From Bacteroidota bacterium (GTDB lineage Bacteria > Bacteroidota > Bacteroidia > UKL13-3), in the NCBI GenBank assembly GCA_027482225.1, contig JAIXWD010000004.1, positions 1 to 64,000 of the forward strand: 64,000 bases of DNA. Reading direction: 5' to 3'. Shown piece after piece: positions 23,264 through 27,422 of this stretch; the first letter of the stretch is position 1; each line of letters starts with the position of its first letter. Below the pieces are notes generated by a model. The model ran no database searches, had not been told where the DNA came from, and saw only the letters and a program-made list of their open reading frames with translations. The translations under genes were made by a program, and so were the position numbers.

Positions 23264-25309
23264 TTATTCTTGTTTGTAAAATAGATGCATAAAAACAAAA
23301 TGAGGTAAACTGATGCAAGCTAGAAAGACGAAAAATGATGGAAGAATAGTTTTTATTTGATTGGGTTCGTTAATATTTAACAAGATGCAGGTGATTAAAA
23401 TCACAAATGCCCCAATTGTGTGTGGCAGAGCCTTTTTATAAAGGCAAATTGAATGTATTTTTAATTGACGCTTTAAATGCGACCATGCATTAAAACTATG
23501 TTGGCAAATAAAATAAATGGAGAATGCAATTAACAGATTAGTAAATGCTCCACCTATAAGTAATGTTATTAAGGCATAAATACTTGATTTATTGGTGCTA
23601 ATTGCTGTAAATAATAAATATAAAATGGACAAAATAGCTATTGGAACAGCATATTTAACCAAAAATTCCTCATACAATTTAATAAATTCCAATCCCTTAA
23701 TATTTATAATAATAGCGATTGATTCGTGTACATGCGTGAGAATAATAAACATTAGAATAGAAGCCCCTAACATCCATGCATTGATATAAGATGATAAGGT
23801 TGTTACTGTTGAATTTATTTCCTCCAATTCTGATTCACCAAAATGAAAGGATGAATACATAATAAAAAATAGAAGTGCTAGGGAAGGGAAGAATTGCCAA
23901 AAAAAGTAGTAAACAATTATGGTTATTAAATACTTTACTACAAAAAATGAAAGCGACTTCTTGCCATTGGAAATGGTTAAATGATCTAATGCTCCATGCG
24001 GAATTCCAACCCAAAGCAATCCCAATGTGATACATAAATAGCTGTAATATAGGGCTATTGTTGGGTTGTATTGTTTTATGATGAAGTATAGCAGTAATGT
24101 TACAGCGGTAATCAAATACCTCATGAAATTGTGTTTTACCGCATACACCAGCAAAGATTTAAGGAATGGAGTCAATGGCAGTGATTTGAATATATTAACC
24201 TCTTGCATCAGTGATGTTTGTTCATCTAGGAACAAAAAGATGGTTTTTACATTTTGGGCTAAAAATAGTTTGGTGAATATTCTTTTTCCCTCTTTAGGCC
24301 AATAAAGTAATATAATAAGCAGTAATGTGTCGTAAAATCTGAATCGCTTTTTTGCCTTAAGGGATAGCATGTTTATGTCCTTACCTTTGGTATTGGTGAT
24401 TTCATTTTTTACCATCTCGGCAAAGTGAAACATATTTTTAAATCCATATCCTGTACTAGGTTTAATTAAATTAGCGTTGGTTCCAGTTTTTAGAATGCCC
24501 CTATATATGGCGGGTTGATGCAAGTGAGTAGTCATTGGAATACATCCTATTTCTTCATCAATAATTTCGAATTTCCCAACCTTGTTTTGAAGTGCTTCGT
24601 TTAATACTGCTTTTGCATAGTCAATATCTATTTTTTCTGCACCAAAACGGGTTAGTTCAATTAAAGCTTCGGTGCTTGAGTATGGTAGTGTATAAATAAA
24701 TTGTGTGAAGTTGTTTTGGTCTACATCAAAGTTCATCATCTCAAATGTATTTTCCTGAAATAAATCATGTTCACATTTTATTTTAACTCCATAAAAAGAT
24801 TGATGTAAGTGAATAGCGTTAGATTGATGAGTTTCGTTTTGGGGTGGTGCACTGTCAAAAAGATGATATGTAAATAAATTGCCATTCGAAGTTTTTATCG
24901 TATAAATGTCATTGTTTATAGATAACTCATTTGTGGAATAATTGAAAATGGGAATATTTGCTATTAATAACTTCTCGCGTAAATAATTGTACAAATCAAT
25001 ACTTCTTATTAAATAATACGGTTGATCAGAAATGTTTTGTTTTTGACCACCGTTTATAACAACATTATTATAATAACGGTTGATGATTGGTTTAAGATCA
25101 ATTACTATTGGGTCGTTTGGATGTGCCCAAAAACAATAAGTTTTATCATTTATGATTTTAAGTGATGGTTCGATTATGGCAATTCTTTTATTATGTAAAA
25201 GATTGTCCTTTAAGAGTGACAAGATAATAAGGCTATTACTAGCTCCAAGTCCTGAGAAAATGTAATCATAAACAATTTCTTCGTTATTAAATTGACTTGA
25301 TATTGTCAT
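23264..25309 (-). CDS. Fusion protein: lycopene beta-cyclase (CrtY type) + Brp/Blh beta-carotene 15,15'-dioxygenase
   Basis: One uninterrupted 681-codon frame joins two enzymes of retinal synthesis. Residues 10-390 match a CrtY-type flavoprotein cyclase: dinucleotide fold YDYIFSGLGASNS (14-26), CFWAHPND (59-66), HQSFYGVKI (169-177), MNFDVDQ (192-198), ALIELT with the probable catalytic Glu218, IPMTTHL (257-263) and KPSTGYGF (283-290). Residues 397-681 are a multi-pass membrane Blh domain with its conserved His motifs: GIPHGALDHL (435-444), SSFHFGESE (486-494), CQHSFNAWSHL (602-612) and LPHFVFMH (668-675). The expected reactions are lycopene to beta-carotene, then cleavage to two retinals, at the inner membrane. 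The rhodopsin gene is just upstream on the same strand, 88 bases away, with a terminator hairpin between. The crtE, crtB and crtI genes are not in the window. Confidence 0.93.
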   Translation of the reverse strand: MTISSQFNNEEIVYDYIFSGLGASNSLIILSLLKDNLLHNKRIAIIEPSLKIINDKTYCFWAHPNDPIVIDLKPIINRYYNNVVINGGQKQNISDQPYYLIRSIDLYNYLREKLLIANIPIFNYSTNELSINNDIYTIKTSNGNLFTYHLFDSAPPQNETHQSNAIHLHQSFYGVKIKCEHDLFQENTFEMMNFDVDQNNFTQFIYTLPYSSTEALIELTRFGAEKIDIDYAKAVLNEALQNKVGKFEIIDEEIGCIPMTTHLHQPAIYRGILKTGTNANLIKPSTGYGFKNMFHFAEMVKNEITNTKGKDINMLSLKAKKRFRFYDTLLLIILLYWPKEGKRIFTKLFLAQNVKTIFLFLDEQTSLMQEVNIFKSLPLTPFLKSLLVYAVKHNFMRYLITAVTLLLYFIIKQYNPTIALYYSYLCITLGLLWVGIPHGALDHLTISNGKKSLSFFVVKYLITIIVYYFFWQFFPSLALLFFIMYSSFHFGESELEEINSTVTTLSSYINAWMLGASILMFIILTHVHESIAIIINIKGLEFIKLYEEFLVKYAVPIAILSILYLLFTAISTNKSSIYALITLLIGGAFTNLLIAFSIYFICQHSFNAWSHLKRQLKIHSICLYKKALPHTIGAFVILITCILLNINEPNQIKTILPSFFVFLACISLPHFVFMHLFYKQE

Positions 25310-25337: not shown

Positions 25338-25381
25338 AAAAAAAAAGAGGACGTTCAGTAAACTGAAGAGTCCTCTTTTTA
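25338..25381 (-). terminator. Strong (bidirectional) terminator between rhodopsin and cyclase-dioxygenase genes
   Basis: GAGGAC (25347-25352) pairs with GTCCTC (25370-25375), and an inner TTCAG/CTGAA stem extends the hairpin. On the minus strand it is followed by nine T (A-run 25338-25346); on the plus strand by five T. It begins 17 bases after the rhodopsin stop codon, so the downstream gene needs read-through or its own promoter. Confidence 0.88.
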
Positions 25382-25397
25382 AATGATAATGTAAAAT

Positions 25398-26114
25398 TTA
25401 GTCTTCGCTTCTGCTCAAAGCATAAATAACTAAACCAAAACCAATTTTGTTTATAGCATCTGCTATATTGTATACAATATCCATTGCATGCAATGCAGCT
25501 GCTTTGTCTTGTACTAATTTCATTCCAAATAAACCACCTTCTGTACCTAAAATGTAACCAAGTGGATAAATAGCCCAACCAACTAAAACAAACCAACCTA
25601 AAATACGGGTTGCTTTAGCAACTTGAGGACCTGCAGTTTGAGATAAACTTGCCACTTCTCCAAACCATACTAAGTATGCTATGTAGAAATAAGCTGCTCC
25701 TGAAATAACTCCCCAAAGAACACTTTGAGTAGGATCTAATACTTCTCCGATGTAACCAGTAACTAGCATTACTAAAGAAGCAAAAATTAATTTCCAAAGT
25801 AAACCGATTTTAGCACCTGCTTTTTTGGTAATTAAATAAAATTCCACACACATCAACGGCACTGTTAAAATCCAATCTACATATCTAAAGAATGTAGGTG
25901 AATCACCTGTTTCTAAGTTGTAACCTCTCATGTAGTAGTAATGCACTGCTGCAATGAAAGTGATTAATCCAGAAACTAATACTGAAGTTCTCCATTTTTG
26001 AGACGTGTTACTTAACTCAAAAAAGAAAAATACTGAGGCAGCCATCATGGCCATTGTTCCGATAAAAAACGTAAAAGCTACGTAATTATCACTAGCAATT
26101 TTTAAATGTTCCAT
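25398..26114 (-). CDS. Proton-pumping microbial rhodopsin (proteorhodopsin type, green-tuned)
   Basis: A 238-residue seven-helix membrane protein that binds retinal and should export protons in light. Helix C holds the DTE proton-pump motif: Asp80, Thr84 and Glu91, equal to 97, 101 and 108 of green proteorhodopsin (constant offset 17). His58 matches the counterion-coupled His75, Arg77 matches Arg94, and Lys223 in DAINKIGFGL is the retinal Schiff-base lysine. The residue equal to position 105 is Met88, typical of green-absorbing Bacteroidota pumps; Gln would indicate blue. NDQ sodium-pump and NTQ chloride-pump motifs are absent. The retinal-producing fusion enzyme lies directly downstream. A 495-base non-coding region lies upstream and must contain its promoter. 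Confidence 0.97.
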   Translation of the reverse strand: MEHLKIASDNYVAFTFFIGTMAMMAASVFFFFELSNTSQKWRTSVLVSGLITFIAAVHYYYMRGYNLETGDSPTFFRYVDWILTVPLMCVEFYLITKKAGAKIGLLWKLIFASLVMLVTGYIGEVLDPTQSVLWGVISGAAYFYIAYLVWFGEVASLSQTAGPQVAKATRILGWFVLVGWAIYPLGYILGTEGGLFGMKLVQDKAAALHAMDIVYNIADAINKIGFGLVIYALSRSED

Positions 26115-26609: not shown

Positions 26610-27422
26610 TTAAAACTTAACGAATTTTTTAGTGTAGGAATGACCGTTTTCGGTTGTTAACAAAATGGTGTAAATACCTTTTGATAAGGCATGAATATTT
26701 AATTGATTGCCTATCAACTCTGTATTTTTAATAACTTGAAATCCATTAACATTAAATACTGCAACCTCGCTATAATTACTTTGGTGAGCAGTTGATATAT
26801 TAATGATATCAATAGCAGGATTTGGGTAAATAGTCATGAAATCAGCTTTTAAGTTAGTTGATAAACCTACAAAACCTTGTTTATACAAGCGTAACTTGGT
26901 TAAATATGTTTTATCTCCATCTTTATGTCCTTCATGGTTTGAATTAAACGCACCATAAAACACCACTTCATTCACCTCTGTTGGGGCAACCCAATCAAAA
27001 GTCCAACTTAACGAGTCTATTCCTTCAACACCAGCAGTGCGATAGGTTACATATTTATTATTACCTACCAATTTGGTTTTTGTGGTATCTGTAATTAACA
27101 ATGTGCCTAATAAATCACCATTAATGGCTTGTGGCGAAACTGAAAATCCAAAACGCGTGGCACCAATTTCTGTATTGGTAGCTTTAATGGTGTAACGTTG
27201 TCCGGGCACAAATCCAGCCTTAGGAACAGTAGAAGTAATCCAGCCTTCTACATCGGTAGCAGTTCCACCATGGCAAACTGTGCAGTTTTTCAAGCTATCT
27301 CCTGGAGAGCCAGTATAACCGGGTTCCGTACCATCTCGTTTGCCAAATTTAATTCCTGTAAACGAGCCTAAAACCACAAAAACTAATGCGCCTGCAAAGA
27401 TATAAGGTATTGTTTTTTTCAT
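26610..27422 (-). CDS. Secreted protein with CxxCH motif, choice-of-anchor-V/Reeler-like domain and type A T9SS sorting domain
   Basis: A 270-residue exported protein. An N-terminal hydrophobic signal (residues 1-22) precedes GYTGSPGDSLKNCTVCHGG, where Cys47, Cys50 and His51 form a c-type heme attachment motif. A beta-sandwich region (about 60-185) with VPGQRYTIKATN and TRFGFSVSPQA resembles the Reeler/choice-of-anchor-V family known with this CxxCH head. The last 75 residues are a Por-secretion tail (IYPNPAIDIINIS, LSKGIYTILLTTENG, KKFVKF). It would be moved to the cell surface by the type IX system. Heme attachment is predicted only by motif. A TATATTTG element (27443-27450, minus strand) lies 20 bases upstream of the start codon. 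Confidence 0.83.
   Translation of the reverse strand: MKKTIPYIFAGALVFVVLGSFTGIKFGKRDGTEPGYTGSPGDSLKNCTVCHGGTATDVEGWITSTVPKAGFVPGQRYTIKATNTEIGATRFGFSVSPQAINGDLLGTLLITDTTKTKLVGNNKYVTYRTAGVEGIDSLSWTFDWVAPTEVNEVVFYGAFNSNHEGHKDGDKTYLTKLRLYKQGFVGLSTNLKADFMTIYPNPAIDIINISTAHQSNYSEVAVFNVNGFQVIKNTELIGNQLNIHALSKGIYTILLTTENGHSYTKKFVKF

Follow-up and report, generated by a model that had tools for sequence, protein, structure and literature searches.

Capture of light by rhodopsin is common in sunlit water, and how cells apportion their lycopene between retinal and the remaining carotenoids has, to our knowledge, been little studied. In the proteorhodopsin cassettes of marine Flavobacteria and other bacteria, separate crtY and blh genes accompany the opsin gene, which gives the same pathway of opsin, cyclase and Blh as in the locus described here, sometimes also in the same gene order. 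A four-domain protein of Thecamonas trahens, CrtI-CrtB-CrtYcd-Blh, has been proposed to make retinal directly (PMC10016063). For a bacterial crtY-blh fusion, a search of the open-access literature (subscription journals lay outside it) returned no description, nor did we find biochemistry of any fused crtY-blh protein. Provisionally, the fusion can be regarded as undescribed so far, with the Thecamonas four-domain protein as the nearest case.

The window analysed here, a stretch of 64,000 nucleotides of a Bacteroidota genome (positions 1 to 64,000 of contig JAIXWD010000004.1), carries a crtY-blh fusion gene at 23264..25309 on the minus strand. Its one uninterrupted frame of 681 amino acids starts with an ATG at 25309 and closes with a stop codon at 23264. 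The cyclase half (24140..25309, minus strand; residues 1 to about 390), recognized by Pfam match, fold and conserved residues, contains the FAD motif at residues 20–25, Glu218 and STGYGF at 285–290. The Blh half (23264..24136, minus strand; residues about 393–681) is an all-helical membrane domain with H438, D442, H489, H604 and H670. Lycopene_cycl (PF05834) matches residues 40–385 with 109 bits against a cut-off of 23.4, covering positions 24–378 of the 380 in the model, while BCD (PF15461) matches residues 430–677 (108 bits, cut-off 28) and Brp/Blh TIGR03753 residues 426–674 (123.2 bits, cut-off 95.25). The initial annotation had proposed such a single cyclase and Blh frame from the sequence alone, and both this and the residues it named (the glycine-rich FAD motif, Glu218, STGYGF, His438 and His604) were found to be correct. 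A stop or frameshift near residues 380–400 was looked for in independent assemblies, and since many of them carry the frame intact, an assembly or frameshift artefact is ruled out and the fusion is real. Already in the first search for relatives, one frame passed through the junction in 14 other genomes.

The explanation that we favour, and hold with considerable confidence as a whole, is that of a bifunctional membrane enzyme leading from lycopene to retinal, which forms a two-gene light-pump cassette with the opsin, combined with a putative insulation of the pathway and a putative partial termination of transcription. What can be read directly from the DNA is the one frame, the intact active sites, the linkage to rhodopsin, the single origin, the second cyclase of nearly every fusion genome and a conserved hairpin. 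The N-terminal CrtY domain would convert lycopene to beta-carotene, and the C-terminal Blh domain would cleave beta-carotene to two retinals. The host's own cyclase would feed a competing pathway, in which CruF hydration, CrtD desaturation and CrtZ hydroxylation intercept gamma- or beta-carotene, and this would be why the cassette brings its own cyclase. The fused dioxygenase would then receive beta-carotene from the cyclase before the CruF, CrtD and CrtZ enzymes reach it. It is plausible that beta-carotene is channelled from one site to the other, and the proximity within one chain could also amount to co-localisation or dosage alone.

We now consider how widespread the fusion is. In a sample of 396 genomes spread over the class, it was found in 36, from 11 families, and it accounts for about half (36) of the 78 genomes that have a Blh match. 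The initial annotation had left open how common the fusion is; far from being rare, it is a common form across these 11 families. Surveys that tally separate crtY and blh genes may therefore misread genomes of this kind. Rhodopsin is present in 35 of the 36 fusion genomes and in 63 of the 360 others; among 58 nearer relatives the fusion occurs in 16 (one of them counted though split over two contigs), all 16 with rhodopsin, these co-occurrences being raw counts that ignore kinship. Relatives of the fusion are encoded in 300 stretches of the genome collection, mostly from metagenome-assembled Bacteroidota of fresh and sea water, going by the record titles. In 74 of the best 80 of these 300 loci, the fusion is a single near-full-length frame. 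Four of the other six are cut by contig ends, one (L057) has a frameshift and one (L063) has two open reading frames. No match to the fusion was found among 50,697 phage records that were searched for a possible phage origin.

The rhodopsin gene lies directly upstream of the fusion on the same strand in 50 of the best 80 loci. The fusion is found away from rhodopsin in marine Flavobacteriales (L062, L065 and L073), and by eye these three loci share a neighbourhood of MutS-like, TrmH-like and LysS-like genes. Three genomes (G011, G018 and G049) have a rhodopsin with neither the fusion nor a Blh match. Two genomes without rhodopsin carry what look like decayed cassettes: a truncated Blh remnant of 193 amino acids in G014 (L106:4539-5117), and one with an in-frame stop within the match in G028 (L021:1522-2340).

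In the trees of both domains, the fused proteins form one clade (support 100 and 98, with only the best-scoring non-fused Blh proteins sampled), from which it follows that the fusion arose once. The nearest cyclases to the fused clade are unfused ones encoded beside blh, followed by further cassette cyclases; the free cyclases of carotenoid clusters are not the nearest relatives. Comparison with G007, a genome of the same genus without rhodopsin, suggests that the cassette region may have been gained or lost as a block: its LuxC-like and biotin-carrier genes are about 9 bases apart, whereas in the window they are separated by 4.4 kb that hold the fusion, the rhodopsin and one more gene. The gene upstream of the rhodopsin, for a choice-of-anchor V protein with a T9SS sorting tail (26610..27422, minus strand), is missing together with the cassette at this empty site.

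These data bear on the strongest competing explanation, namely that the fusion is neutral or serves equal dosage of two adjacent genes, with neither hand-over of beta-carotene nor insulation, which we find possible rather than probable. It is favoured by genomes in which rhodopsin, crtY and blh follow one another in this order as unfused genes (G116, G390, G274, G183 and others), and by L063:359-2478, a locus inside the fused clade in which the crtY and blh frames overlap by 4 bases with both domains intact, most simply as a later split of the fusion. Rhodopsin-blh cassettes without any cyclase of their own, presumably functional, point in the same direction. On the other hand, a single origin has led to presence in 11 families, with a single clear split among the best roughly 80 loci, and the junction does not resemble a loose tether. 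Namely, in the AlphaFold2 model of the fusion (built with 53 fusions; pLDDT 91.3, pTM 0.86), the junction residues 379–414 are helical with a pLDDT of about 95, so that the halves appear to be joined without a long flexible linker. In fold, the cyclase half of the model is similar to FAD enzymes, geranylgeranyl reductases among them (Z 23.9; 353 residues superposed with an rmsd of 4.1). A sequence profile of the fusion had no match among solved structures, and a structure search with the whole model returned matches filled by the cyclase domain. The Blh half modelled alone reached a pLDDT of 94.8, and with this model Foldseek found no solved structure at E ≤ 0.001; the Blh family thus seems to be without one.

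Returning to the explanation that we favour, one of its elements is the second cyclase. A free cyclase is kept in 35 of the 36 fusion genomes (CrtYcd in 30 and a standalone CrtY in 5), the sole exception being G345, where neither was found. In the genome of the window it is a CrtYcd, a cyclase type unrelated to CrtY, which on another contig is clustered with crtB, crtI, a CrtD-type desaturase, a PF04240 gene (CruF-type) and a CrtZ-like hydroxylase. Organisms producing monocyclic xanthophylls, flexixanthin for one, are known to have much the same gene set and need crtW in addition (PMC10784355). The CruF-type gene occurs in 15 of the 16 near fusion genomes versus 16 of 42 without the fusion, and within the family in 13 of 14 versus 11 of 21 (kinship ignored in both comparisons). 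In E. coli, the Nonlabens CrtY alone converts lycopene to beta-carotene, while together with CruF it yields mainly 1'-hydroxy-gamma-carotene (PMC11855829). Interception by CruF is therefore real in a related system, and such a diversion provides a reason to keep cyclase and Blh together. We consider it the more likely case that the fusion keeps the beta-carotene bound for retinal away from the competing pathway.

Since nearly all fusion genomes have a free cyclase, the cyclase of the fusion is an extra one, dedicated to the rhodopsin. The dedicated use of the product for retinal, proposed in the initial annotation, is thus supported, given the rhodopsin and the second cyclase each in 35 of the 36 genomes. 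Its further prediction of little free beta-carotene does not extend to the whole cell, because the free cyclase is kept and, in the genome of the window, sits in a cluster for hydroxylated carotenoids. The same observations speak against a fusion cyclase that serves the entire carotenoid synthesis of the cell, with Blh drawing off some of the beta-carotene. The active-site residues of the cyclase are kept, which would suit this alternative, but hardly any genome lacking rhodopsin carries the fusion, and we consider it improbable.

The residues themselves were examined by aligning the fusion with its fused and non-fused relatives. Glu218 and the glycines G20 and G22 of the FAD GxG motif are invariant in 36 of 36 non-fused and 51 of 51 fused cyclases, and the same is true of His438, Asp442, His489, His604 and His670 in 30 of 30 non-fused and 51 of 51 fused Blh proteins. 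Taking columns at least 93% conserved in the non-fused relatives, the window protein keeps every one in the Blh half and all in the cyclase half except for the changes W58Y, W80Y and G280N. The cyclase also stays below the cut-offs of the NCBIfam CrtY subfamilies (73 bits versus 209.5 for TIGR01790 and 41 versus 215.2 for TIGR01789), so that these narrower models are not assigned to it. By its Pfam match, FAD motif and Glu218 it is a lycopene cyclase of the CrtY type, which would act as a dicyclase, though given these low scores perhaps as a monocyclase instead. That one domain is inactive, for example a cyclase remnant that anchors or regulates Blh, would agree with these scores and the three changes, but it is very unlikely, as nearly every conserved cyclase column, those of Glu218 and the FAD glycines included, is unchanged in all 51 diverged fusions, a pattern pointing to selection that still acts on both domains.

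The opsin beside the fusion, also noticed in the initial annotation, is borne out by a PF01036 match at 25398..26114 on the minus strand, directly upstream of the fusion and in the same orientation. The protein is a proteorhodopsin with the DTE proton-pump motif and a Met at the position of residue 105 in GPR; among solved proteorhodopsins it matches 9jov (E 6.9e-84). Thr, Met and Glu occupy the motif positions in all 91 rhodopsins read. At the antenna fenestration position, Gly135 of the window aligns with Phe152 of GPR and with a Gly of 9jov, and a Gly is found here in 92 of 92 rhodopsins. In other rhodopsins a Gly at this place is the mark of carotenoid-antenna binders (PMC12308411, PMC9151804), and the window protein shares the equivalent Gly with the antenna-binding proteorhodopsins and xanthorhodopsins (Gly153 of Kin4B8 and Gly156 of XR; PMC12308411). 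If it does bind an antenna, both the retinal and the antenna carotenoid would come from one lycopene pool. Among relatives the rhodopsin is about 90% identical and the fusion 35–40%. Recent transfer was rejected as the cause of the high rhodopsin identity: four-fold sites are just 38–52% alike between genera, which makes strong constraint the better reading.

Between the two genes, at 25338..25380 on the minus strand, there is a terminator-like hairpin with a U-tail, 28 nt ahead of the start codon of the fusion, with a folding energy of −17.7 kcal mol−1 (z −5.4). A simple terminator scan did not list it, probably because of a bulge in the stem. Neither this hairpin nor the antenna-type Gly was part of the initial annotation. 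A comparable hairpin is present at this spacer position in 29 of 30 distinct fusion loci, compared to 0.2 expected from shuffles; of 14 rhodopsin cassettes tested that are unfused, 13 have one as well. With 28 bases from the end of the T-run to the ATG, a separate promoter would hardly fit, and we infer partial read-through at the hairpin into the fusion. The terminator would thereby pass part of the opsin transcripts into the enzyme gene and give much opsin and little enzyme. The specific combination, in which the single-origin fusion insulates retinal synthesis from the xanthophyll pathway (CruF, CrtZ) and partial termination at the hairpin sets the opsin:enzyme ratio, is put forward tentatively, as a possibility and not as the probable case.

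Finally, we compare the locus with the known systems. The Thecamonas protein likewise holds a cyclase and Blh in one chain, but it is from a eukaryote, uses the unrelated CrtYc/d cyclase, also includes CrtI and CrtB, and represents a separate fusion. Together, the fusion and the upstream opsin gene would constitute a two-gene light-pump cassette, which may serve as a ready unit for rhodopsin light pumps in lycopene-producing hosts. The cassettes with separate crtY and blh differ from the locus in the window, where cyclase and Blh form a single polypeptide, the unit consists of two genes with the hairpin separating opsin from enzyme, and the host retains another cyclase.
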